Source: Microcella pacifica | Lineage (GTDB): Bacteria; Actinomycetota; Actinomycetes; Actinomycetales; Microbacteriaceae | Assembly: GCF_009371975.2 (NCBI RefSeq) | Contig: NZ_VIKT02000007.1 | Span: 62,001-126,000, forward strand | Length of the DNA stretch: 64,000 nt | Direction of reading: 5' to 3' | Shown: piece after piece, positions 1,943 through 63,367 of the stretch | Layout: every line of letters begins with the position of its first letter | Numbering within the stretch: the first letter of the stretch is position 1 | Made by a program: the position numbers and the translations under genes | Notes under the pieces: model-generated | Told to the model about the DNA's origin: nothing | What the model saw: only the letters and a program-made list of their open reading frames with translations | Databases searched by the model: none

Positions 1943-3369
1943 CAGTCCTCCACCACCAGTCGCGGTTGGTGGCGCACGCTGTCGCTCAGCCTCAGAAGGA
2001 GGGCGATGATGATCCAGTTGGCGACGAGCGAGGAGCCGCCGGCGGCGAGGAACGGGGTCGTGAGGCCGGTGAGGGGGATGACGCGCGTGACGCCGCCGAT
2101 GACGACGAACACCTGCAGGGCGATCACGAAGGAGAGGCCCACAGCGAGCAGGCGACCGAAGTCGTCGCTGCCGTTGAAGCCGATGCGGAAGCCGCGGGCG
2201 ACGAGGAGCAGGTACAGCGCGAGGATGCCGAACAGACCCACGAGCCCGAGCTCTTCGCCGAGGCTCGCGATGATGTAGTCGCTCTCGGCGAGCGGCACGA
2301 TGTCGGGCCGCCCCTGGCCGAGACCCGTGCCGATGAGCCCGCCGTTGGCGAGCCCGAACATGCCCTGCACGAGCTGATAGCTGCCGCCGACCGCCTCGTA
2401 GACCTCGGGGTTGAACGAGTCGAGCCACGCGTCGAAGCGGCCGCCGACGTAGCCGAGCACCCGGCTGGCGAGGAGGGCACCGCCCACGAACAGGGTGAGG
2501 CCGAGCAGCACCCAGCTCAGGCGGCCGGTCGCGACGTAGATCATGACGAGGAACAGGCCGAAGTAGAGGAGGGAGGTACCGAGGTCGCGCTGGAACACGA
2601 GAACGCCCATCGCGGCGATCCAGATGATGACGATCGGGCCCAGATCGCGACCCCGGGGCAACTGGATGCCCAGCACGCGTCGCCCGACGATTGAGAGCGA
2701 CTCGCGCGCCGTCACGAGGTACCCCGCAAAGAACACCGCGAGAGCGATCTTGCCGATCTCACCGGGCTGGAAGGAGAACGGCCCGAGCTGAATCCACAGC
2801 CGTGCACCGTTGATCGTCTGGCCGATGCCCGGCAGGAGGGGCAGCAGCAGGAGGCCGATGCCGACGACCATCGCGACGTAGCGGTAGCGCGCGAGGACGC
2901 GGTGGTTGCGCACGAGCACGAGCACGCCGATCGCGGCGACCATGGCGATCGCGGTCCACACCATCTGGCGGATGCCCGCGCTCTCCCAGCCCGCGAAGCC
3001 CTCTGCGATATCGAGGCGGTAGATCATGGCGACGCCGAGCCCGTTGAGGGTCATGCTGATCGGGAGGACGAAGGGGTCGGCGTCGCGCGCGACGATGCGC
3101 AGAACGACGTGCACGCCGAGGCCGAGCACGCCGAGCCCCGCGCTGTACAGCAGCACCTGAGGGTCGAGCGCGCCGAGCGCGCCGAGCTGCACGAGGGTCA
3201 CCGCCGCACCCGTGATGGCGATGGCGATGAGGACGAGCCAGAACTCGAGGGTGCGCAGCGGCGAGGGCGTCCGCAGACGGATCCTGATGGATTGCGTCGC
3301 GGGCGCGAGCGGAGCATCCCCGTCCACCACGGGGCCAGCCAGCGGCACGGTCGGCTCAGTCGACGACAT
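1942..3369 (-). CDS. rodA: FtsW/RodA/SpoVE family peptidoglycan glycosyltransferase
   Basis: SEDS-family polytopic membrane protein, 475 aa, that polymerises lipid II into glycan strands. It has about ten hydrophobic segments after a polar N-terminus of about 40 residues, and the family signatures DLGTSLLYFG and a C-terminal stretch with GLTTPFLAAGGSS. The start at 3369 (MSSTEPTV) lies inside the last codons of pstP (14-bp overlap). A further in-frame ATG 10 codons upstream would extend the overlap and is less likely. Position between pstP and pbpA matches the mycobacterial rodA slot, so RodA is preferred over the division-specific FtsW, which normally sits in the dcw cluster. Confidence 0.94.
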   Translation of the reverse strand: MSSTEPTVPLAGPVVDGDAPLAPATQSIRIRLRTPSPLRTLEFWLVLIAIAITGAAVTLVQLGALGALDPQVLLYSAGLGVLGLGVHVVLRIVARDADPFVLPISMTLNGLGVAMIYRLDIAEGFAGWESAGIRQMVWTAIAMVAAIGVLVLVRNHRVLARYRYVAMVVGIGLLLLPLLPGIGQTINGARLWIQLGPFSFQPGEIGKIALAVFFAGYLVTARESLSIVGRRVLGIQLPRGRDLGPIVIIWIAAMGVLVFQRDLGTSLLYFGLFLVMIYVATGRLSWVLLGLTLFVGGALLASRVLGYVGGRFDAWLDSFNPEVYEAVGGSYQLVQGMFGLANGGLIGTGLGQGRPDIVPLAESDYIIASLGEELGLVGLFGILALYLLLVARGFRIGFNGSDDFGRLLAVGLSFVIALQVFVVIGGVTRVIPLTGLTTPFLAAGGSSLVANWIIIALLLRLSDSVRHQPRLVVED

Positions 3370-8716: not shown

Positions 8717-11017
8717 ATGAGCACCACGGATGCCCGGCCCGCGGTGGGCGCCGAAACCGAGCCCGCCGGCCTGCAGCTCGAGCTGACGGGCATGACATGC
8801 GCCTCGTGCGCCAACCGCATCGAGCGCAGCCTCAACAAGGTGCCCGGCGTGGAGGCCACGGTCAATTACGCGACCGAGAAGGCGAGCGTGCGCGCGGCCG
8901 CGGGGGCCGCAGAGCAGCTCGACGTAGACGCGCTCATCGCGGCGGTCGAGAAGGCCGGGTACTCGGCGACGCTCGTCGTTCCGCGCGAGGTGAGCGCAGC
9001 ATCCGGAGATCAGGGCGGGAACGGTTCAGCGCCGAGCGCGCCCGACGAGCTCGGCGCGCTGCGGCAGCGGCTCCTCATCTCCACCGTGCTCACGGTGCCC
9101 GTGCTCGTGCTGACGATGATCCCGACGCTGCAGTTCACGAACTGGCAGTGGCTCGCCCTGACCCTCGCGGCACCCGTCGCGGTGTGGGGGGCGTGGCCGT
9201 TCCACCGCGTCGCGTTGCACAACGCGCGCCGCTTCATCGCGAGCATGGACACCCTCATCTCGGTGGGCGTGACGGCGGCCTTCCTGTGGAGCGTGTACGC
9301 GCTCTTCTTCGGCGAGGCCGGCATGCCCGGCATGACTATGCAGCTGCAGTTGCTCGGTACGCCCGAAGCCGGCGCCCACGAGATCTACCTCGAGGTCGCC
9401 GCGGCTGTGACGGTGTTCATCCTGCTCGGCCGCTACCTCGAAGCGCGCGCCAAGCGCTCCTCGCGCGAAGCCCTCGACGCTCTGCTCGACCTCGCTGCGC
9501 GCGAGGCGACCGTGCTGCGCGACGGTGTCGAAGTGCGCGTGCCCGTCGACGCGCTGCAGGTCGGCGACCGCTTCGTCGTGCGCCCCGGCGAGACCATCGC
9601 GACCGACGGTCTCGTCATCGAGGGAGCCTCGAGCGTCGACCAGTCGCTGCTGACCGGCGAATCCGTGCCCGTTGACGTCACGGTCGACGACCGCGTCGTG
9701 GGCGGCACCCTCGCCGTGGGCGGGCGCCTCGTCGTCGAGGCGACGCGCATCGGCGCCGACACCGAGCTCGCGCGCCTCGCGCGCCTCGTCGAAGAGGCGC
9801 AGACCGGCAAGGCCGATGTGCAGCGGCTCGCCGACCGCGTCTCGGGCATCTTCGTGCCCATCGTCTTCCTGCTCGCGCTCGTCACGCTTCTGGCCTGGAT
9901 CGTCTTCGCTGACTCGGTCGAGATCGGCTTCACGGCGGCGGTCGCGACGCTCATCATCGCGTGCCCGTGCGCGCTCGGCCTCGCGACGCCGACGGCGCTG
10001 CTCGTCGGCACGGGTCGCGGCTCGCAGCTGGGCATCCTCATTCGGGGCCCGCAGGTGCTCGAACGCACCCGCCGCATCGACACGATCGTGCTCGACAAGA
10101 CCGGCACCGTCACGACGGGGCACATGGCGGTGCGCTCGGTCACGGCGGCGGGCGGCATCGATCGCGACCGGATGCTCGTGCTCGCCGCCTCCGCCGAAGA
10201 CGGGTCGGAGCATCCCCTCGCCCGGGCGGTCGTCGACCACGCGCGCTCGTCCGGCCTCGAGCTGCTGCCGGCCGAGAGCTTCGAGGCGCACGCCGGGGCC
10301 GGTGTCACGGCCGTCGTCGACGGGCACGCGCTCGCGATCGGCCGGGCATCGTGGCTGCGCGAGGAGTGGGCTGTGCCCGTCGACGATTCAGTCGTGACGG
10401 ATGCTGAGTCTCAGGGTGCGACGCCGATCGTCGTCGCGATCGACGGAGCCGTGGCCGGAGTCATCGTTCTCGGCGACACGCTCAAGCCGACCTCGGCTCT
10501 CGCGCTCTCGCGGTTGCGTGCGCTCGGGCTCACGCCCGTGCTGCTCACGGGCGACAATGCTGGAGCCGCCGCGGCGGTCGCGGCCGAGCTCGGCATCGAC
10601 GACGTGCGCGCGGGCGTGACGCCCGCCGGCAAGCTCGATGTGATTCGGCAGCTGCAGGCCGACGGGCGCGTCGTCGCCATGGTCGGCGACGGCGTCAATG
10701 ACGCGGCGGCGCTCGCCGCCTCCGATCTCGGCATCGCGATGGGCGGCGGCACCGATGCGGCGATGGCGTCCTCCGACCTCACCGTCGTGAGCGGCGACCT
10801 ACTCGTCGTCGTCGACGCGATCCGGCTCGCTCGACGCACCCTGCGCACCATCATCGGCAACCTGTTCTGGGCCTTCGGCTACAACGTCGCCGCGATTCCG
10901 ATTGCCATGCTCGGGCTGCTGAACCCGTTGCTCGCCGGGCTCGCGATGGCGTTCTCGAGCGTGTTCGTCGTGACGAATTCGCTGCGGTTGCGCGGGTTCC
11001 GCCCCCAGCCTCGCTAG
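8717..11017 (+). CDS. copA: Copper-exporting P1B-type ATPase CopA
   Basis: 766-aa inner-membrane pump that uses ATP to export Cu(I). Order: N-terminal HMA domain with GMTCASC (about residues 23-30), first membrane bundle, actuator domain with TGES, the CPC metal-transport motif at residues 416-418 ([12 protein letters not shown]), the phosphorylated Asp in DKTGT (D460), the HP motif (EHPLA), [11 protein letters not shown] and the last two helices. CPC and HP identify the copper/silver subclass. It forms a two-gene operon with the chaperone. Confidence 0.96.
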
Positions 11018-12070: not shown

Positions 12071-13900
12071 CTAAGCGGGGCGGCCGACGCGCGGGATGCC
12101 CAGCGGCACGGGCAGGCGCAACTCGGCGGGCGCGCCGGGCGGCACCACGGGCGACCGGGGCGTGACCGGCGGAACGGGGTGGTAGGGCTCGCCGAGCGCG
12201 GGACGAGCATCCCGTTCGCCGCGATTCGGCCACAGGGCGAAGGCGCGCTCCGCCTGCGCGGTGATCGTGAGCGAGGGGTTCACGCCGAGGTTCGCCGAGA
12301 TCGCCGAGCCGTCGACGACGTGCAGGCCCTCGTGCCCGAAGACTCGGTGGTACGCGTCGACGACTCCGCTCTCGGGCGAGTCGCCGATCGCGCAGCCGCC
12401 CAGGAAGTGCGCCGTCATGGGCACGTCGACGACCTCGCTGATGCCCGACTGCGGGAACCCGTTCATGTGCTTCGCCATGAGCGCGTAGGTCTCGTTCGCC
12501 TGCGGAATGTAGGTGGGGTTCGGTTCGCCGTGGCCCTGCGCCGACCGCAGGCGGAAGCGCCCGAAGGCGCCACGGCTCGCGCGCACCGTGAGGGAGTTGT
12601 CGCGCGTCTGCATGACGAGCCCCACGATCGAGCGGCGCGACCAGCTGCCGAGCCCGACCACCATCGAGGCGACGCGGCCGGGGTGCCGGAGCAGTTGGCC
12701 GATCCACAGCAGCCAGCGCGGGGTGCGGCGGCCGACCGGGACGGCGAGCGTCGCGAGCAGGGCGAGCGCGTTGGAACCGTGGCCGTAGCGGCACGGTTCG
12801 ACGTGGGTGTGGTCGTCGGGGTGGATCGACGAGGTGATCGCGACGCCCCGCGTGTAGTCGACGCCGCGGCTGCGGCGCAGGGCCGTGGATGCTCCGCCGA
12901 GGGCCTCCGAATTGGTGCGGGTCAAGGCGCCCAACCGGTCGGAGATGCCCGGCAAGTGCCCTTCGGCCTTCATGCGGTGCAGCAGCTGCTGCGTGCCCCA
13001 GGCCCCCGCGGCGACGACCACCTGGTCGGCCGTCCAGCGTCGCTCGCTGCGCCGCCCTCTGCCCGTGGCACGTGTGGTGACGACGTACCCACCCTCCTCA
13101 GCTGTGCCAGATCTGGCGCGAATCGGCGCTGGGGTGGGGGGCACGCGCCCCTTTGCGTCAGATCTGGCCCGTTCGGGGTGGGTGCGGGGCTCGAGGCGGG
13201 TGACGGTGGTGCGTTCGTGCACCTCTGCGCCCGCCGACTCGGCCAGGTGCAGGTAGTTCTTCACGAGCGTGTTTTTCGCGTTGTGGCGGCAGCCCGTCAT
13301 GCACTCACCGCACTCGCGGCAGCCGGCGCGGGCCGGGCCGGCGCCTCCGAAGTACGGGTCGGGCGACTCGACCCCGGCACCCTCGCCGAAGAACACGCCC
13401 ACGGGCGTGCGGCGGAAGGTGTCGGAGACGCCGAGGTCGGCGGCGACCTTCTGCATGACCTCGTCGGCGGGCGTGATCGTCGGGTTGGTGGTGACGCCGA
13501 GCATGCGCGAGGCCTGGTCGTAGTAGGGGTCGAGCTCAGCCCGCCAGTCCGCGATGTGAGCCCACTGGCGGTCGCGGTAGAACGCGTCGCTCGCGGGTCG
13601 GTAGAGCGTGTTGGCGTAGACGAGGGAGCCTCCGCCGACGCCCGCACCGGCGAGGATCATGACGTCGTCGAGCAGGTGGATGCGCTGAATGCCGAGCAGG
13701 CCGAGCGCGGGAGCCCAGAAGTATTTGCGCAGACTCCACGAGGTGCGCGCGAACTCGTCGTCGGCGAATCGGCGACCGGCCTCGAGCACGGCGACCGAGT
13801 AGCCCTTCTCGACGAGGCGCAGCGCGGCGACCGCGCCGCCGAACCCCGAGCCGATGACGAGCACGTCGACGTGCCGCTCGTGCTCGGGCGCGGTCGCCAC
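12071..13900 (-). CDS. GMC-family FAD oxidoreductase (cholesterol oxidase-like)
   Basis: 609 aa. The N-terminal dinucleotide-binding motif GSGFGGAVAALRL binds FAD. GAGVGGGSLVYAN is a conserved GMC segment. The C-terminal block includes HFLGGCAIG and VVDGSAISANLGVNPSLTITAQAER, the GMC catalytic and FAD region. A CRECGECMTGCRHNAKNT segment (C-x2-C-x2-C-x3-C) near residue 180 resembles a ferredoxin motif and recurs in actinobacterial ChoD-type proteins. The GTG at 13900 has AAAGG 6 nt upstream; a TTG overlapping the preceding stop (13906) is an alternative. A hydrophilic insertion near residue 240-265 is encoded by palindromic DNA (13106-13168). The coupled aldehyde dehydrogenase suggests sequential alcohol to acid oxidation; the substrate is unknown. 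Confidence 0.85.
   Translation of the reverse strand: MATAPEHERHVDVLVIGSGFGGAVAALRLVEKGYSVAVLEAGRRFADDEFARTSWSLRKYFWAPALGLLGIQRIHLLDDVMILAGAGVGGGSLVYANTLYRPASDAFYRDRQWAHIADWRAELDPYYDQASRMLGVTTNPTITPADEVMQKVAADLGVSDTFRRTPVGVFFGEGAGVESPDPYFGGAGPARAGCRECGECMTGCRHNAKNTLVKNYLHLAESAGAEVHERTTVTRLEPRTHPERARSDAKGRVPPTPAPIRARSGTAEEGGYVVTTRATGRGRRSERRWTADQVVVAAGAWGTQQLLHRMKAEGHLPGISDRLGALTRTNSEALGGASTALRRSRGVDYTRGVAITSSIHPDDHTHVEPCRYGHGSNALALLATLAVPVGRRTPRWLLWIGQLLRHPGRVASMVVGLGSWSRRSIVGLVMQTRDNSLTVRASRGAFGRFRLRSAQGHGEPNPTYIPQANETYALMAKHMNGFPQSGISEVVDVPMTAHFLGGCAIGDSPESGVVDAYHRVFGHEGLHVVDGSAISANLGVNPSLTITAQAERAFALWPNRGERDARPALGEPYHPVPPVTPRSPVVPPGAPAELRLPVPLGIPRVGRPA
13106..13168. repeat. Palindromic repeat pair inside the GMC oxidoreductase gene
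   Basis: GCCAGATCTGGC (13106-13117) is a perfect 12-bp palindrome, and CAGATCTGGC recurs at 13159-13168 in direct orientation 51 bp (17 codons) away. Together they encode the two RARS tetrapeptides of a hydrophilic insertion. It looks like an in-frame insertion of a small palindromic element. Confidence 0.55.
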
Positions 13901-13902
13901 GC

Positions 13903-15603
13903 TCAACCTTTGCGGTAGCTGTCGAGCGCGGCGGCACCGATCGGGGCGGCGATCGCCCACGAGTCGATGCCCGCGAAGCGCGTGAGGCGGCGGGCGGTCA
14001 CGTGCGCGGTGCGGTTGCCGACGTACCAGAGGGGGGTGGGATGCGCGCGCCACGGCCCCTCGGCGACGGTGCGCTCCACGTGGTCGGGGTCGAGCAGCAG
14101 GGCGTTGTGCACGATGCCGAGACCGCTGCCGACCTCGGCGAGGGTGTGGCCGGGGAAGGCGCCCCACGTGCCCCCGGGCATCCCGAAGACGGTTCCGCCC
14201 CACGCGTTGATGCCGATCGTGCCGTAGCGCAGCTGGGCGACGAGGTCGTCGAAGGCGCCCCCGAGGGCCTCCCGCGTCGACGGATGAAGGTGGATGCTCG
14301 CGCTCAGGGTTCCTGCGAGCTTCTCGTTGGCGAAGGCGACGGCGGCAGCCAGGTACGGCTCGGGCTCTCGCGTGCCGGGCAGCCGCACGACGCCGAGCAC
14401 GGGCCCGAACGCCTCCTGCGTGAAGAGGTGCTCGTCCGCGTCCTGCGGGTCGAGGTGATCGACGAGGGTGCGGGGCACGTTCGGGTCGCCGCCGAGCACA
14501 TTGGCGTGCGGGTGCACGGTGACGACCGCGAGCTGCCGGCTCGACGCCCCCGGGTAGTAGGCGGGCCGCGTTGGGGCGATCGCCAGGTGGTGGCGCAGCC
14601 GGTCGACGAAGGCATCGGCTTTGCCCCAGGCTTCCGGGATCACGACGATCTGGGTTGCCACGCAATTGAACCCCGAATTGTGCAGGCGCTGCGTCGCGAT
14701 GTCGCGGGCGACGGCGTCGACGTTGTCGTCGCTCCAGGTCTCCTCGGGCACGATGATCGCCGGGCCCACGCCGCCGAGCTCGCTCGTGACGGGCGTGGAG
14801 AGCCGGGGCTCGCCCGCCGCGCGGCGGCGGGCGGCATCCTCACCGTCACCCCACACGATCGCGTCGTGAGTGTGTCGGCTACCCGTGAGGTGGACGCGAT
14901 CCACGCGATCGTCTGTGACGAGAGCCTCGCCGAGGTCGCGGTCGCCCGAGACGACCGCCACGATACCGAGATCGATGAGCGGCGCGAAGGCGGCCTCGAG
15001 CGCCGGCCGCAACGGGTCGGTGATCGGGTTGAGCTTGACGAGGACGGCCGAGTTCTCCTGGTAGAGCGCGCTCAGCACGTCGAGGGCGGGGATCGCCGTG
15101 ATGTTGCCGGCCCCGAGGACGAGCGTCAGGCGCGGCTGCGGGTCGCGCCGACGCAGCTCGCGAGCGATGCCCGCACGAACCTCGTCGAGCGAGACGCCGG
15201 GTCGCAGCCACACACGCGCCTCGTAGTCCTGCAGGACGGCGTCCTTCGCCACATAGGGGAAGACGCGCAGGGTCGTGCGGCCTCCGGGAGCCCGGCCGAT
15301 CTCGACCTCGGACACGGGGGAGCGCCCCGCGTCGAGCAGCTTGAGGGTCTTCTCCATCGCGCTCGTCGCGGTGATGAGCGAGTAGGGGCCCGTCGACCAC
15401 TCCTCACCCGCGGCCGGAGAATCGGGGTCGATGCCCTTGATCTCGCAGGCCGCGCGCACCCAGTCGGGTGCGGCGGCGAGAGTGGCGGCTCGCACGCTGC
15501 GCAGGAGGTCGCGCTTGCTCGCGAGGGGCAGCTCGACCCACCGTTGCGCTCCCGCGCGCAGCGCATCCACACGGGGTGAGTGATCGGCGTTCGACGGGGG
15601 CAC
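13903..15603 (-). CDS. Aldehyde dehydrogenase family protein
   Basis: 566 aa NAD(P)-dependent aldehyde dehydrogenase fold. Features: the nucleotide-binding stretch LTLVLGAGNITAIPALDVL, the LTGSRHTHD segment, the ELGGVGPAIIVPEE region that carries the general base in the family, the catalytic Cys in HNSGFNCVATQ, and the EAFGPVLGVVRLPG motif near the C-terminus. It is longer than a classical 490-residue enzyme and starts with an extra helical domain. The GTG at 15603 is preceded by AAGGAG. The next gene, the GMC oxidase, starts next to its stop, so the two probably form one oxidation pathway. Confidence 0.87.
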   Translation of the reverse strand: MPPSNADHSPRVDALRAGAQRWVELPLASKRDLLRSVRAATLAAAPDWVRAACEIKGIDPDSPAAGEEWSTGPYSLITATSAMEKTLKLLDAGRSPVSEVEIGRAPGGRTTLRVFPYVAKDAVLQDYEARVWLRPGVSLDEVRAGIARELRRRDPQPRLTLVLGAGNITAIPALDVLSALYQENSAVLVKLNPITDPLRPALEAAFAPLIDLGIVAVVSGDRDLGEALVTDDRVDRVHLTGSRHTHDAIVWGDGEDAARRRAAGEPRLSTPVTSELGGVGPAIIVPEETWSDDNVDAVARDIATQRLHNSGFNCVATQIVVIPEAWGKADAFVDRLRHHLAIAPTRPAYYPGASSRQLAVVTVHPHANVLGGDPNVPRTLVDHLDPQDADEHLFTQEAFGPVLGVVRLPGTREPEPYLAAAVAFANEKLAGTLSASIHLHPSTREALGGAFDDLVAQLRYGTIGINAWGGTVFGMPGGTWGAFPGHTLAEVGSGLGIVHNALLLDPDHVERTVAEGPWRAHPTPLWYVGNRTAHVTARRLTRFAGIDSWAIAAPIGAAALDSYRKG

Positions 15604-21159: not shown

Positions 21160-21987
21160 CGGTCGCCAGGGGTACAGGCCGGGGCGGCGCTCCTCGATGA
21201 CGGACCCGCCGCCGTCGACGACGATGAGCTGCCCGGTGACGTAGCTCGCGCCCGGGGAGGCGAGCCACGCGATCGCGCTCGCGACCTCCTCGGCCGTACC
21301 GCTGCGGCCGAGCGGCACGAGCTCGCCCTCCTCGACCTCCTGCCGCAGCTGCGACCCCGTCGCGATCCAGCCGGGAGCAACCGCGTTGACCGTGATGCCG
21401 CGACGCGCCTCGTCGACCGCGAGCGCGCGGGTGAAGCCGAGCACGCCCGCCTTCGCGGTGGCGTAGCCGAGGTCGTCGCGCGCGGCCTGCACGGCACCCG
21501 TCGTCGAGGCGACCGACACGATGCGGCCCCAGCCAGCGTCACGCATCCCCGCGACGACCGCGCGCGTCACGAGGAAGGCGCTCGTGAGGTTGACGTCGAC
21601 CGCGCTGCGCCACTCGTCGATGCTCATGCCGATGTCGCCCCGCGGCATCTCCTCGCCGGTCGCGACCATGCCGGCGTTGTTGACGAGGATGTTCGGCTCG
21701 CCCACACGCTCGACGACGGCCCGCACGGCCGCAGTCGCGGCGGCCTCGGTCTCGAGCCGTGCGACGACGCCGACCGCGTCGAGGCCATCGTCGTGCAGCT
21801 CGGCGACCCGCGCCTCGATGCGCTCGGTCGTCGCCGTCATGGCGACGCGGGCACCTCGTTGCGCGAGCGCGCGGGCGGTGGCGAAGCCGATGCCGCTGGA
21901 TGATCCGCACCCCGTGACGAGCGCCGTGCGGCCGCTCAGATCGAGGTCGAGCGGCAGGGCGGGGCGCGAGCTCGGCGAACCTGTCAT
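21157..21987 (-). CDS. Short-chain dehydrogenase/reductase
   Basis: 276 aa classical SDR. The nucleotide-binding motif is VTGCGSSSGIGFA, a slightly expanded TGxxxGxG. NNAG is followed by the catalytic Ser (SVAST), Tyr and Lys in YATAKAG, and the C-terminal PGWIATG and ITVNAVAPG segments. FabG-like sequence, but the substrate is unknown. Its -10 hexamer includes the stop codon of the upstream MFS gene. Confidence 0.88.
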   Translation of the reverse strand: MTGSPSSRPALPLDLDLSGRTALVTGCGSSSGIGFATARALAQRGARVAMTATTERIEARVAELHDDGLDAVGVVARLETEAAATAAVRAVVERVGEPNILVNNAGMVATGEEMPRGDIGMSIDEWRSAVDVNLTSAFLVTRAVVAGMRDAGWGRIVSVASTTGAVQAARDDLGYATAKAGVLGFTRALAVDEARRGITVNAVAPGWIATGSQLRQEVEEGELVPLGRSGTAEEVASAIAWLASPGASYVTGQLIVVDGGGSVIEERRPGLYPWRP

Positions 21988-21993
21988 GGGCTG

Positions 21994-21999
21994 AGGCTA
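21994..21999 (-). promoter_or_regulatory. Leaderless-type -10 hexamer overlapping a stop codon
   Basis: Minus-strand TAGCCT sits exactly 6 nt before the SDR ATG; its TAG (21999-21997) is the stop codon of the MFS gene. The context is nearly identical to that at 57600-57605. Confidence 0.52.
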
Positions 22000-23259
22000 G
22001 TGCGGGGCATCCCGAACCGGTGTCGCGTGCCGGGATGCGCCGCGCTCGCGCGCGGCCGGGGTCGCGATGAACGCGACCGCGATGAGCACGAGCACCACCC
22101 AGAAGGCGTTGAGCAGGCCGAACTGCTCGCCCAGGAAGCCCAGGAGGGGCGGCCCGACGAGGAACGCGAAGTAGCCGACCGTCGCGACCGCGGCCACGCG
22201 CGCGGCAGCTTTCGAGGGCTCGTCGGCCGCCGCCGACATGCCCACCGGGAAGCCGAGTGACGCCCCCAGGCCCCACGCGAAGATGCCGATGCCGGCAGCC
22301 ACCGGGTGGTCGACGAGGATGAGAAGCGCGAGACCGACCATCGCGAGGAGCGCGCTCGCGCGCAGCACCGGCACCCGTCCGAAGCGGTCGAGCACCCACA
22401 CGCCCGCGATGCGACCGGTCGTCATCGCTGTCGCGAAGACGCCGAAGGCCAGGGCGCCCGTCGCCTCGTCGGCGCCGCGGCCATCGACCATCGCGAGGGC
22501 GAGCCAGTCGTTCGCGCTGCCCTCCGCGAACGCCATGCCGAGCACGATCGCGCCGATGATGAGGGTGCGCGGCTCGCGCCAGATCGCCATGCGCTCGGCG
22601 AACGTCGAGCGCTCGGGGCCCGGGCCGTCGTCGTCGAGCCCCGGCAGTGCGCGATGGCGGGGAAGATGCCGCACGGCGAGGATGCTCGCGATGAGACCGA
22701 GCGCGGTCATGCCGAGCAGGTGGGCGTCGAGGCCCACACCGATCGCCGCGAGCCCGGCCGCCGCGGCGGCACCGACGATCGTGCCGAGGCTCCAGGAGGC
22801 GTGGAACCAGGGCATGATGCTGCGACCCTGCGCCTGCTCGACGCCCGCGCCCTCGACGTTCATCGCGACATCGATGATGCCCGTCGTCGCCCCGAACACC
22901 ACGAGCGCCACGAGGACGAGCGGGTAGGAGCCGAAAGTCGCGGAGCCGATGCCGAGCAGGGCGATCGACCCCATGCTCACGACGAGGCCGACCAGGAGCG
23001 TCGCACGCGTGCCGATGCGGGCGATCACGTGAGACGAGCCGAGGAGGCCCGTGATCGAGCCGACCGCCATGCCCGCGATGAGCACCCCGAACTCGTCGGT
23101 GCGCACCTGCAGGGCATCCCGAATGGCGGGCGTGCGCGCGAACCAGCTCGCCATCGCGAGGCCGTTGATGGCGAAGACCACGAAGACCGCGAGTCGCCAG
23201 GCGGCGAGGCTCGGGCGACCCGAATGGGTCGTGCCGGGAGAGGAAGGGGTGGCGCTCAC
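21997..23259 (-). CDS. MFS transporter
   Basis: 420-aa major facilitator, twelve hydrophobic segments, YbjJ/FucP-like. N-terminal helix FVVFAINGLAMASWFARTPAIR matches this group (split as FVVFAINGLAMAS and WFARTPAIR). The loop between helices 2 and 3 is HVIARIGTRATL. The start is GTG at 23259 with GAAAGG 6 nt upstream; an upstream ATG gives a long polar extension and is rejected. The substrate is unknown. Confidence 0.87.
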   Translation of the reverse strand: MSATPSSPGTTHSGRPSLAAWRLAVFVVFAINGLAMASWFARTPAIRDALQVRTDEFGVLIAGMAVGSITGLLGSSHVIARIGTRATLLVGLVVSMGSIALLGIGSATFGSYPLVLVALVVFGATTGIIDVAMNVEGAGVEQAQGRSIMPWFHASWSLGTIVGAAAAAGLAAIGVGLDAHLLGMTALGLIASILAVRHLPRHRALPGLDDDGPGPERSTFAERMAIWREPRTLIIGAIVLGMAFAEGSANDWLALAMVDGRGADEATGALAFGVFATAMTTGRIAGVWVLDRFGRVPVLRASALLAMVGLALLILVDHPVAAGIGIFAWGLGASLGFPVGMSAAADEPSKAAARVAAVATVGYFAFLVGPPLLGFLGEQFGLLNAFWVVLVLIAVAFIATPAARERGASRHATPVRDAPH

Positions 23260-57605: not shown

Positions 57606-58601
57606 CTGCGGGTGGATCGCGAACTCGGGCCAGAGCGTGCGCTGCACGTGGCGCTCGGGGGAGCGCACGAGCACGAGCGCCACCGTCACCAGCAGCAGGA
57701 CGAAGCTCGCGTAGGCGCTCACGTTGATCCAGATCGTGGAGGCGACGGCGGAGTCGTCGGGAACTGCCGTGCCGATCACCATGAGCGCGCTCAAGCCGGC
57801 GACGCCTCCGACGTATGCGATCGCCCAGTGCAGGTCACGCAGGCTCTGCGCGGTCAGCGCGTCGCTCCACGCGAGCGCCGCGGCATCTCCGAGCAGCGCG
57901 CGGCGTCGGGCGAGGCGATCGGCGATCGCGGGGAGGGTGAGGTACAGCGCGCCTGCGGCGAGACCCAGGAAAGCAAGAGGCGCCGCGGACAGGGCGAGCG
58001 ACTCAGGGGCGTCAGCGAGCGGTAGCGAGAGGACGACGAGCAGCAGCGCGGGGAGTGCGACCGCGACGCACGCGGCGACGGCGGCCATGCGTCGCTCGGC
58101 AGGAGCGACGAGGTCGGCGAGGCTGATCGGTGTCACGCGAGCGACAACGGCCCGCGAGGGCATCGACCGCCGTGCGAGCATCCCGCCGACGATGGCGCCC
58201 ACCTGCGTTCCGAGGAAGGCGAGGCCGAAGCTGAGCGGACCTGTGGCGAGCCCGAGGCTCGGGGGCGGGAACTCCCACGGCCGCACGAGCATCAGGACCG
58301 ACGTCAGGCCGACGAGACCTCCCAGTACGCCGCCCCGCACCCGCATAGCGAGCTGATGCTCGAGCGCGGGCCGTAGCTCCTCGGGCACGACGAGGTTCGC
58401 CCGCAGCGCGTGGCGGTTCACGAGCCGCTCGCGCGTCGCGGGGCGCCACGTGCGCACGAAGGTCAGGGCGAGGAAGGTCAGGACGGCGACGCCGCCCGCA
58501 GCCAACGCCACGAGCATGCCGGTGAAGAAGACCTCGCTCGGGATCTCCACGACGGTGGTGCTCGTGCCCCCGCGGTCGATGATGTGCGTTCCTGCTGTCA
58601 T
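57603..58601 (-). CDS. Multi-helix integral membrane protein beside a YtrA regulator
   Basis: 332 aa with eight or so hydrophobic segments and a charged middle loop. No recognised family. The position before a YtrA-type GntR gene suggests it is a regulated envelope-stress or efflux component lacking an ATPase partner in this window. The ATG at 58601 has GGGAG 3 nt upstream. A possible promoter TACAAT is at 58622-58627, inside the dyad at 58623-58636. Confidence 0.75.
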   Translation of the reverse strand: MTAGTHIIDRGGTSTTVVEIPSEVFFTGMLVALAAGGVAVLTFLALTFVRTWRPATRERLVNRHALRANLVVPEELRPALEHQLAMRVRGGVLGGLVGLTSVLMLVRPWEFPPPSLGLATGPLSFGLAFLGTQVGAIVGGMLARRSMPSRAVVARVTPISLADLVAPAERRMAAVAACVAVALPALLLVVLSLPLADAPESLALSAAPLAFLGLAAGALYLTLPAIADRLARRRALLGDAAALAWSDALTAQSLRDLHWAIAYVGGVAGLSALMVIGTAVPDDSAVASTIWINVSAYASFVLLLVTVALVLVRSPERHVQRTLWPEFAIHPQ

Positions 58602-58667: not shown

Positions 58668-60137
58668 CTACGGGCGCGGCGCGTGACGCTCGAGGAACCC
58701 GTACACCTCGGTCTGGTCGACCCCGGGGAACGACTCCGTCGGCAGGGCGGCGAGCAGGGAGGAGTGGATGCGCGCCTGGGGCCTGGCCGCGCCGCTCCAG
58801 CGCTCGGCGAGCGGTGCCGGCGCCTGCCGGCAGCACGCCGGGTCCGGGCAGCTCGACTCACCGCGACGACTGGTCTCGCGCCCGCGGAACCACTTGACGT
58901 GCGCGAAGGGTGTGCCGACCGAGATCGAGAACTCGCCAGCCGAGCCCGACTCGATGCGCGAGGTGCACCAGTAGGTACCCGTGGGCTTGTCGGTGTACTG
59001 GTGGTACGCGCTGAAGCGGTCGGGCTCGTCGAACACCTGCCGCGCCGACCACTTGCGGCACACGAGTTGCCCCTCGACCGCACCGAGGGCATCCTTCGGA
59101 AACTGCACCGAGTCGTTCTCGTACGCCTTCGACAGCACACCGGCCGGGGACACCTTGAGGAAGTGCACGGGAATACCCAGGTGCTCGGTGGCGAGATTCG
59201 TGAAGCGGTGGGCAGCCGTCTCGTAGGTGACGGCGAAGGCGTCGCGCAGGTCTTCGACCGCGAGCTCGCGGCGCTCCTTCGCCCGCTGGAGGAACGCGAC
59301 CGCGTCGCCCTCGGGGATCATGAGAGCTGCTGCGAGGTAGTTCGACTCGACGCGCTGGGTGAGGAACTCGTCGTAGTCGCGCGGCTCCGGGCGCCCCAGC
59401 ACGTGGCCGGCGAGAGCCTGCAGCAGGTTCGCGCGGGGGTCGCGCCCGGGTGCGTTCGAGACGGGCAGGTAGATGCGGCCGTTCTCGAGGTCGGTGATCG
59501 ACCGGGTCGAGCTCGGCAGGTCGCTCACGTAGTGCAGCGCGAAGCCGAGGTGGCTCGCGAGCTCGGCCGCGAGGCGCTGCGAGAGCGGCCCGCCCTCGTG
59601 CCCGATCTTGCGCAGCAGGTCGGCCGCGATCGACTCGAGCTCGCCGAAGTAGTTGCCGCGCGCCCGCATCGACTGCCGCAGCTCGGCGTTGGCCCGCCGC
59701 GCCTCCTCCGGTGTCGCCGCGCGTTCGACGTGCACGCGCTGCAGCTCGTCGTGCAGGGCGAGCACCGTCTCGATCGCCTCGTCGCTGAGCGACTTGCGCA
59801 CGGGCAGCGGCGGGATGCCCAGAGCCGAGAACAGCGGACCCTCCTGCGCTCGCGCCAGGGCGATCTCGAGAGCCGCGCGGCGACTGGGCGGCGTGGGGGT
59901 CAGCAGCTCGTCGAGCGTGACGCCGACGGCGCGGGCGACCGACTGCAGCTCGCTGAGCTTCGCCTCGCGCTTGCCGTTCTCGAGGCTCGACATGTGCGAG
60001 GTGGCCACCCCGACAGAGCTCGCGAGGTCGGCGAGCGTGAGCTGGGCATCCGATCGCAATTGCCGGATGCGCTTGCCGAGGGTCAACGAATCGATCACCT
60101 CTTCAGCCTGGGCCGAGAGCAGGGGCGCTGGGGTCAT
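58668..60137 (-). CDS. ramB: RamB-type short-chain fatty-acyl transcriptional regulator
   Basis: 489 aa. N-terminal XRE helix-turn-helix (about 20-78: GKRIRQLRSDAQLTLADLAS and VATSHMSSLENGKREAKLSE), a central IrrE/ImmA-like peptidase-fold region with a coiled segment and HFLKVSP, and the C-terminal ScfR domain with conserved cysteines (VCRKW, WCTSR, CPDPACC). RamB represses isocitrate lyase genes in Corynebacterium and mycobacteria. Here it diverges from aceA with interlocking dyads between them. The start at 60137 is chosen because an upstream in-frame extension reads through those dyads. Confidence 0.92.
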   Translation of the reverse strand: MTPAPLLSAQAEEVIDSLTLGKRIRQLRSDAQLTLADLASSVGVATSHMSSLENGKREAKLSELQSVARAVGVTLDELLTPTPPSRRAALEIALARAQEGPLFSALGIPPLPVRKSLSDEAIETVLALHDELQRVHVERAATPEEARRANAELRQSMRARGNYFGELESIAADLLRKIGHEGGPLSQRLAAELASHLGFALHYVSDLPSSTRSITDLENGRIYLPVSNAPGRDPRANLLQALAGHVLGRPEPRDYDEFLTQRVESNYLAAALMIPEGDAVAFLQRAKERRELAVEDLRDAFAVTYETAAHRFTNLATEHLGIPVHFLKVSPAGVLSKAYENDSVQFPKDALGAVEGQLVCRKWSARQVFDEPDRFSAYHQYTDKPTGTYWCTSRIESGSAGEFSISVGTPFAHVKWFRGRETSRRGESSCPDPACCRQAPAPLAERWSGAARPQARIHSSLLAALPTESFPGVDQTEVYGFLERHAPRP

Positions 60138-60273: not shown

Positions 60274-61584
60274 ATGAGCACGCAGAGCCCGTCACAGCAG
60301 CGCGCAGGAGACCAGACGCAGACCGCCGCTGAGCTCGAGGCCAGCTGGAAGACCGACGCGCGCTGGGACGGCGTGCGCCGCGATTACACCGCCGAGGACG
60401 TCATCGAGCTGCGCGGCCCCGTGCGCGAGGAGCGCACGCTCGCCCGCCGCGGCGCCGAGAAGCTGTGGGAGCAGATTCAGGCAAACACCGGCAACCCCGA
60501 GGAGTGGACCTACGCCCTCGGCGCCCTCACCGGCAACCAGGCCGTGCAGCAGGTGCGCGCGGGGCTCAAAGCCATCTACCTCAGCGGCTGGCAGGTCGCC
60601 GCCGACGCCAACCTCTCGGGCCAGACCTACCCCGACCAGAGTCTCTACCCGGCCAACTCGGTGCCCGCCGTCGTGCGCCGCATCAACAACGCGCTGCTCA
60701 GGGCTGGGCAGATCGAGCAGGACGGGCGCGACTGGATGGCGCCCATCGTCGCCGACGCCGAAGCCGGCTTCGGCGGACCGCTCAACGCCTACGAGCTCAT
60801 GCAGAGCATGATCGAGGCCGGAGCGGCCGGGGTGCACTGGGAGGACCAGCTCGCGAGCGAGAAAAAGTGCGGCCACATGGGCGGCAAGGTGCTCGTGCCC
60901 ACGAGCCAGCACATCCGCACGCTGCAGGCCGCGCGCCTCGCCGCTGACGTCTCCCACGTGCCGAGCATCATCATCGCCCGCACCGACTCGCTCGCCGCGA
61001 ACCTGCTCACGAGCGACGTCGACGAGCGCGACCAGCCGTTCCTCACCGGCGGCCGCACCGCCGAAGGCTTCTACAACGTGGAGCCCGGCATCGGTCCGGT
61101 GCTCGCCCGCGGCCACGCCTATGCCGAGTACGCCGACCTGCTCTGGGTCGAGTCGAGCGAGCCCGACCTCGAGCTCGCGCGCACGTTTGCGGAGAGCATC
61201 CACGCCGAGTTCCCCGGCAAGAAGCTGGCATACAACTGCTCGCCGTCGTTCAACTGGAAGCGCCACCTCGATGACGACACCATCGCGAAGTTCCAGCGCG
61301 AACTGTCGGCGATGGGCTACGCGTTCCAGTTCATCACCCTGGCAGGCTTCCACTCGCTCAACCACGGCATGTTCGAGCTTGCGAGCGGGTACCGCGACCG
61401 TCAGATGAGCGCCTATGTCGAGCTGCAGGAGGCCGAGTTCGCCTCCGAGGCTCACGGCTACACCGCCACCAAGCACCAGCGCGAAGTGGGCACCGGCTAC
61501 TTCGACCGCATCGCGACGGCCCTCAACCCGGCCAGCGCGACCCTCGCTCTCGTGGGCTCGACCGAGTCCGAGCAGTTCCACTAG
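60274..61584 (+). CDS. aceA: Isocitrate lyase
   Basis: Glyoxylate-shunt enzyme splitting isocitrate to glyoxylate and succinate, 436 aa. The catalytic motif KKCGH is at 197-201 with C199; other marks are [21 protein letters not shown] (split as [12 protein letters not shown] and TYPDQSLYP), ADAEAGFGG, and NCSPSFNWK near the C-terminus. The ATG has GAGGAG upstream. It diverges from its probable regulator ramB and is followed by a 90-bp palindromic element before aceB. Confidence 0.97.
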
Positions 61585-61595
61585 ACAGCGCTTCC

Positions 61596-61685
61596 TGTTC
61601 GCTCATTCGGGCGCACGACCGTTCCACACGGTGTGTCGCACGCGACACAGCGGGTTCCGCATCCGAAAGCCCGAATGAGCGAACA
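61596..61685. repeat. 90-bp nested palindromic element between aceA and aceB
   Basis: The outer arms TGTTCGCTCATTCGGGC (61596-61612) and GCCCGAATGAGCGAACA (61669-61685) are 17 bp, perfect, and separated by 56 bp. Inside are TGTGTCG-CACG-CGACACA (61632-61649) and ACCGT-TCCAC-ACGGT (61618-61632). It can fold as a multi-branched RNA hairpin or DNA cruciform. No protein coding or clear target duplication is seen. It may be a REP/MITE-like element or a structured mRNA spacer. Confidence 0.88.
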
Positions 61686-61732
61686 CCACCACCGCACTTC
61701 TGGACCAGTACTTCCCTGAGAGGACGAGCATC

Positions 61733-63367
<1,635 letters not shown>

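Follow-up and report, generated by a model that had tools for sequence, protein, structure and literature searches.

The 90-bp palindrome between aceA and aceB in Microcella pacifica probably represents, as a solo and non-autonomous copy, the terminal palindrome of a small mobile unit, in which a gene encoding an AbiEi-like/DUF559 protein lies between two such palindromes. Its sequence places it, as a solo member, in a dispersed family of approximately 88-bp elements present in Microcella and in other Microbacteriaceae. We observe bracketing of DUF559 genes by palindromes, matching of arms between solo elements and bracketed genes, covariation of paired arm positions, and patchy occupancy of individual sites among close relatives. 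From these observations we infer that the palindromes are moved by the AbiEi-like/DUF559 protein. The association of palindrome and nuclease gene suggests a little-known kind of mobile DNA, and the best reading is a REPIN/RAYT-like system built on an unrelated nuclease.

The palindrome between aceA and aceB

The element occupies positions 61596 to 61685 of the window, by which we mean the whole stretch of 64,000 nucleotides that was analysed. Its arms, its fold, and a family covariance model identify it as a solo palindromic element of arm family E, about 88-90 bp long. It lies in a 148-bp gap between two tandem genes on the plus strand, aceA (isocitrate lyase, 60274 to 61584), which ends 11 nt before the element, and aceB (malate synthase, 61733 to 63367), which starts 47 nt after it. 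A divergent regulator gene is located at 58668 to 60137 on the minus strand. All three genes are present both in the list of open reading frames and in the codon-model gene calls. The names aceA and aceB are assigned from the sequences, and the regulator is putatively RamB-like.

The first-pass annotation had described two 17-bp arms that are exact reverse complements, with smaller perfect dyads nested inside. The arms are exactly as claimed: the left arm TGTTCGCTCATTCGGGC (61596 to 61612, plus strand) and the right arm (61669 to 61685, minus strand), its reverse complement, pair at 17 of 17 positions and lie 56 nt apart. Among the inner dyads, TGTGTCGC-AC-GCGACACA is real and the remainder are short. 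In family terms the inner dyad is a degenerate core, CGGTGTGTCG-CACG-CGACACAGCG, at 61629 to 61652. Its two halves (61629 to 61638 and 61643 to 61652) retain 17 of the 20 letters of the family consensus CGGCGTGTCG-N3-5-CGACACGCCG. Free spacers, defined by the pairing profile of 43 aligned elements, are found to the left (61613 to 61628) and right (61653 to 61668) of the core. Folding the 90-nt stretch as RNA, a check that the annotation had proposed, gave -52.2 kcal/mol compared with -29.2 (sd 3.7) for 200 dinucleotide shuffles (z -6.3), none of which was equally stable (0/200). The stretch is followed by CCACCACC and has no T run on its 3' side of the kind found in an intrinsic terminator. 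Rfam returned no match to the window stretch up to an E-value of 5, and none at gathering thresholds in 15 loci.

The annotation had also seen no second copy in the window, and every search that we ran there agrees. An arm search allowing up to three mismatches returned both arms and a single three-mismatch site, and a scan for core and arms found one element. The family covariance model matched the aceA-aceB site on both strands, together with one weak match at 3070 to 3153 (E 1.2). Its scores at 61594 to 61687 are 67.7 and 58.4 bits for the two strands, the window element being itself one of the 43 rows behind the model. A suggested likeness to a dyad between lysR and putA extends to the short common TGTTCG/CGAACA motif, and the family model has no match there. 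Five other spaced inverted repeats (13/14 nt) are present in the window, at 13106 to 13168, 10313 to 10387, 13821 to 13903, 21964 to 22051, and 58282 to 58366, and none of them is matched by the family model. Across the draft genome from which the window derives (62 contigs), the aceA-aceB site was the sole blastn match and accounted for two of the three family-model matches.

A dispersed family with lineage-specific arms

Searches of the genome and its relatives with the arm and the whole element, which the first-pass annotation had recommended, revealed dispersed copies in other Microcella genomes (G003, G021, G025, G015, and G007, with degenerate copies in G009). When the gap and its flanks were compared with 60 genomes, including the source genome, a match running through the palindrome at this site was found in the source genome and G003 only, with partial matches at other places in G003, G021, and G025. 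The elements follow a common plan consisting of an arm, about 15 nt of free sequence, the core GGCGTGTCG-N3-5-CGACACGCC, another 15 nt or so, and the second arm. Complete family-E copies are 87-88 bp long. The arm families are A (GACCAAATGAAGGGAGC), B (GCCAAATGCAGGA), C (ACGATTCAAGGAAC), D (GTCCGCTCGCCCCGG), and E (GTTCGCTCATTCGGGC), the last including the window element. Arm sequence differs by lineage, and the pairing of the arms is mostly kept.

Pairing was assessed in 43 aligned elements. These rows were picked mostly by exact core, with the arms unselected, and the conservation of the core in this alignment is therefore a product of selection. Complementarity is found in 16-50% of rows at the spacer positions (0-14 outside the core) and in 58-95% at the arm positions (15-30). 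In total, 88.4% of cells are paired versus 73.9 after shuffling, and the covariation score is 0.344 versus 0.119, a value reached by none of 500 shuffles. Among arm cells 81.8% are paired, above both shuffled and slid controls, and two-sided changes occur in 16 of 16 arm pairs. The arm mismatches include 28 G-U and 30 A-C among 688 cells and so carry no RNA strand bias. These nearly equal counts favour a palindromic DNA site, or use of both strands, over an RNA read from one strand. Six or seven of the 43 elements pair poorly in the common register, some of them owing to a one-base shift. An earlier alignment of 12 family-E and related copies yielded a consensus helix of only 8 pairs and a covariation term of 0.28; the near absence of a helix there is due to the decay of one half in many copies. 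The covariance model, R2, was built from the 43-row alignment, and a sequence-only model, R1, was built and left unused.

Allowing a centre of 0-12 nt, the core occurs in 18 of the 26 genus genomes, and the reversed control has no hits. Restricting the centre to the typical 3-5 nt leaves 12 of 26, and the remaining 6 of the 18 contain only a differently spaced hairpin and were set aside. Model R2, for which up to 150 candidates per genome were scored, has matches in 18 of the 26 genus genomes, amounting to 169 over both strands with its own rows included; by the same count there are 34 in G023, 24 in G009, and 23 in G007. Across the family Microbacteriaceae the core was found in 12 of 299 genomes and 8 of 85 genera (reversed control, 1 of 299), mostly with lineage-specific arms, and in G299 without arms. 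Several sites are common to more than one species, specifically those at genes that we take from their sequences to be gltX, lysS-panC, and EcfA-EcfT, and many copies are consequently old. Searches of plasmids, phages, and viral contigs gave no match. A pattern scan of genome contigs produced 11 stretches, two of them in Microcella, and six of the other nine were inspected and look unrelated inside. Cores spaced 26-28 bp apart (G016, G021, G010, G012, G008, and others) were rejected as a different, apparently orthologous hairpin. That hairpin, GGCGTGTCGCG...CGCGACACGCC, is recurrent in several Microcella genomes (L137, L147, L150, L151, and L160).

The bracketed DUF559 gene and the occupancy of sites

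Four of the five close element pairs examined bracket an AbiEi-like/DUF559 gene, with a pair distance of 1.0-1.12 kb. The fifth pair, 0.3 kb apart in G007, brackets no DUF559 gene. The predicted protein has two domains, an AbiEi-like winged helix and a DUF559 domain resembling the Vsr nuclease. Four bracketed proteins were searched against Pfam: PF04480 (DUF559) scored above its cut-off, AbiEi_4 fell below its cut-off in all four, and Y1_Tnp gave no match. PADLOC identified the N-terminal part of the same four proteins as AbiEi-like, with a best E-value per protein of 6e-11 to 1e-4. The positions of a nuclease motif, E...D...E-x-D...H...D..RD, are retained by 80% or more of 35 proteins, though not by every one. 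No solved relative was found by phmmer in the PDB, and NCBIfam gave nothing useful. DUF559 genes are present in 25 of 26 Microcella genomes and in 15 of 16 other chosen genomes of the order.

Bracketing was scored by asking whether a DUF559 locus is flanked by two palindromes with shared arms. Of 81 PF04480 loci, 34 pass this test and 47 fail, including the family-E gene of G003 and the related genes of G025 and G023. The passing loci are 26 of the 51 from Microcella and 8 of the 30 from other genera and families. In G023, the one genome that supplied the nulls, none of 400 random positions passes, and neither does any of 777 long reading frames in 400 kb except the DUF559 gene itself (1/777); the first cases served to tune the test, and orthologues are numerous among the loci. 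The genus has 53 PF04480 matches, of which 51 were tested (L260 of G008 and a gene at G001:C1:905820 were left out), and 16 other genomes have 42, of which 30 had loci tested. At E<=1 the family model matches 7 of 30 and 3 of 20 DUF559 loci, and 4 and 2 of these matches have E<0.01. An earlier palindrome scan with strict pairing, which recovered only 6 sites at DUF559 loci versus 2 in 380 kb of G023, gave way to the bracket test. Arm similarity follows protein identity across 35 genes (Spearman 0.33, 0/2000), and arms are common to 21 of 24 gene pairs with at least 60% protein identity. A literature search, which had most subscription journals outside its reach, found no paper linking DUF559 genes to palindromes. 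Contig C56 of the source genome contains a DUF559 gene bracketed by palindromes at 817-892 and 1880-1955 of locus L276, with arm GTTCGCAACTCAGG, and there is no excess of solo copies of this arm within the window.

Solo elements tend to carry the arms of their home genome. With candidates from 26 genomes, 17 of 30 solos best match the arms of their own genome's bracketed gene. Permuting the genome labels gives a mean of 1.3 and a maximum of 12 such matches, and 0 of 5000 permutations reach 17. The home matches come from 8 of 15 genomes, 8 of the 17 being in G023 and 2 being supplied by hand-entered arms of G003. Four of the 13 solos without a best match at home come from G001, which has a one-sided gene that the table omits. 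The test excludes elements of G002 and G007, for which the table lists no bracketed gene, and the window element was compared with G003, outside the 30. The arm TTCCGAAATCCATG is common to a solo and a gene of G236, which belongs to another genus.

The window arms find their best match in G003, the sister species, at the DUF559 gene located between dapA and thyX; the left-arm sequence TGTTCGCTCATTCGGGC is also present beside that gene. This family-E gene has three good arms and one decayed arm, in its second palindrome, and fails the bracket test for that reason. The dapA-thyX genes of G025 (57%) and G023 (54%) have E-like arms close to each end, outer arms only, with 3-4 mismatches in 17. A DUF559 gene is present at dapA-thyX in 15 of 22 genomes and absent in 6, and in the source genome the locus is cut by a contig end. 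On the dapA side, the source genome has a different DUF559 gene, 34% identical to that of G003. On the thyX side, the start of contig C19 (L311 1-115) encodes a C-terminal tail that, from its sequence, we take to be transposase-like. Homology between the source genome and G003 stops 5 bp beyond one G003 palindrome and approximately 30 bp beyond the other. The source draft genome yielded two DUF559 genes, neither of which belongs to family E, so the window copy looks orphaned, a reading tempered by the break in the draft assembly at dapA-thyX.

These relationships can be assembled into a provisional mechanism. Each protein lineage would have its own arm, and solos with that arm would be scattered in the same genomes, mostly between convergent genes. 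The window copy belongs to arm family E, and its cognate gene would be the dapA-thyX gene of G003. The AbiEi-like winged helix may read the arm and the DUF559 nuclease may cut or nick the palindrome or its target, after which repair would copy the palindrome or the whole unit by REPIN-like dispersal or by homing-like copying. At aceA-aceB, the insertion would have a passive effect on expression only, as a strong 3' hairpin behind aceA, and any such effect on aceA or aceB would be putative and secondary. A broader proposal, which we favour on balance though with less assurance, is that AbiEi-like/DUF559 proteins are dedicated movers of a wide class of short actinobacterial palindromes, each lineage recognising its own arm, spreading solos across the genome, and housing its own gene between two palindromes. 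It would amount to a REPIN/RAYT-like system of independent origin, built on a Vsr-like nuclease instead of an HUH or DDE transposase.

One whole unit is a clean insertion at the pcrA-GDPD site, where the intergenic distance is 1,186 bp in G022 versus 2 bp in G025, with identical flanks. A DUF559 gene of this kind is present at this site in 5 of 24 genomes and absent in 19, including close relatives of each carrier. The G009 gene at the same site has palindromes that, by reading, carry yet another arm, and this locus fails the formal test. The state of pcrA-GDPD also bears on a variant of the mobile-unit explanation, in which solos are excision scars produced by recombination between end palindromes, much as solo LTRs are. 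Close relatives have either a unit or nothing at this site, as this variant might predict. Even so, no genome has a solo at pcrA-GDPD where a relative has the unit, and the family-model sites (roughly 85 in 26 genomes, taken as half of 169) outnumber the units with these palindromes, and we regard the variant as possible but improbable.

The aceA-aceB site is also patchily occupied. When we compared the gap in sister genomes, as the annotation had suggested, an element was present in 6 of 20 readable Microcella gaps and, by reading, absent in 14. The occupied gaps, all matched by the family model, contain family E elements in G000 and G003, family A elements in G023 and G002, an A-like element in G022, and a family C element in G005. 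The closest relatives of occupied genomes include empty ones (G025 beside G022, G014 beside G005, and G001 near G023), and the distribution on the tree requires at least five changes, whether gains or losses. Five genomes without a readable gap (G024, G006, G017, G008, and G004) were drawn unfilled, and the five changes are, by reading of the tree, independent of them. Consistent with the first-pass annotation, inspection by eye revealed no target duplication at seven complete E copies, at aceA-aceB, or at pcrA-GDPD. Repeatedly occupied intergenic sites of this kind would make insertion, homing, and loss comparable in close relatives. In some other species and genera the aceA-aceB gap contains, by reading, unrelated short GC-rich hairpins (L015, L018, L023, L028, and L030).

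The positions of the elements relative to genes are central to a second alternative, that the palindromes are binding sites for the AbiEi-like domain, serving as an operator ahead of its gene and as an insulator or terminator after it. Solos would then constitute a regulon, or bidirectional 3' ends, with no mobility. We classified 58 elements with a simple gene caller based on codon usage, treating orthologous sites as separate: 30 have convergent neighbours, 18 tandem, and 6 divergent ones, while 3 fall within a reading frame and 1 sits at the edge of a contig. In a background of 400 kb of G023 plus the window, convergent gene pairs make up 62 of 403 pairs and 27% of intergenic bases. The convergent placement suits such regulatory sites, and PMC7319586 reports that AbiEi antitoxins bind inverted repeats in their own promoter. 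Against this, the gene has the same palindrome on both sides, solos also occur in reading frames and between divergent genes, and occupancy of aceA-aceB and pcrA-GDPD differs among close relatives. We consider this alternative unlikely.

The first-pass annotation had raised the possibility of a local mRNA element, here a hairpin retained for stabilising aceA mRNA and lowering aceB. The very stable RNA fold, the tandem genes at 11 and 47 nt, and the unrelated hairpins in some other aceA-aceB gaps are all compatible with such an element. Most relatives lack it here, however, palindromes with the same arm are found at unrelated places, and the near equality of G-U and A-C mismatches shows no strand preference, all of which makes this origin very unlikely; an influence on the transcript may exist as a side effect of the insertion.

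Comparison with known systems

REPINs, according to PMC3116915, are inverted doublets of 16-mers with conserved outer ends, a fixed-length variable spacer, compensatory changes, and an intergenic scatter; they flank the single-copy chromosomal gene to which they are cognate, and number 430 doublets in one Pseudomonas genome. The 43 aligned elements resemble the REPIN/RAYT system of Pseudomonas, E. coli, and others in being inverted doublets with conserved ends, fixed spacing, and a variable spacer. A further likeness is a cognate gene flanked by the same repeats (34 of 81 DUF559 loci and 17 of 30 solos), with the G003 gene of the window's arm family falling below the formal threshold. The two systems differ in three respects. 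The partner here is AbiEi-like/DUF559 with no Y1_Tnp domain in the four proteins searched, whereas RAYT is an HUH tyrosine transposase; the Microcella elements have a conserved central dyad; and there are roughly 1-17 sites per genome (half of the strand matches) compared with the 430 doublets. By reading, no GTAG tag was seen. A GGA or GGAG is present near the inner end of the arm, rather than at its foot, in families A, C, D, and others, and is absent in family E. GGAG is a variant of the REPIN GTAG tag. Because the partner gene is unrelated, we place the palindrome outside the REPIN family while regarding it as REPIN-like in its working. If the palindromes are indeed moved by the protein, then short mobile palindromes that have a partner nuclease would have arisen more than once, on unrelated enzymes.

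The first-pass annotation had proposed a REP- or MITE-like mobile unit. Mobility fits the dispersed copies and the 14 empty gaps, and the element nonetheless falls outside the known definitions of a REP or a MITE. This reading is partly supported, and the likely partner is an AbiEi-like/DUF559 gene outside that reader's view. A literal version, in which a RAYT moves a REP or REPIN, or an ordinary insertion sequence moves a MITE, with the DUF559 link coincidental, is very unlikely: the shared REPIN plan and the GGA or GGAG towards the inner end of many arms speak for it, but the bracketed gene is a DUF559 gene lacking a Y1 match in Pfam (four proteins) and no target duplication was seen. Terminal inverted repeats, for their part, are present as in a MITE.

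Other comparisons concern the unit and its protein. In PMC3733652, REPtrons and TIRtrons are transposon-like units made of a RAYT-like gene with flanking REPs or terminal repeats, and Rickettsia palindromic elements are mentioned. Our units likewise combine a gene with flanking repeats and differ in having a DUF559 protein in place of a RAYT-like enzyme. AbiE type IV toxin-antitoxin systems share the AbiEi-like N-terminus, and here the C-terminal half is DUF559 instead. Vsr/DUF559 endonucleases such as Caulobacter VsrA share the DUF559 domain with its E-D-H-D type motif. E. coli Vsr differs in acting on T:G mismatches in methylated sites. The motif residues of Vsr and Caulobacter VsrA are given in PMC12907096, and no flanking palindromes appear in the portion of that paper available. 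DUF559 genes are widespread in these actinobacteria, and a cognate DNA element offers a direct handle on their role through binding and cutting.

Rickettsia palindromic elements resemble the Microcella elements in being palindromic repeats able to sit inside genes, and they are not known to have a nuclease partner. Family E and D elements are found inside one open frame at L068 1500-1588 (G015), L148 1451-1544 (G012), and L149 1447-1540 (G021). This frame joins parts that we presume, from their sequences, to be an EcfA-like ATPase and an EcfT-like permease, and it reads as one protein.
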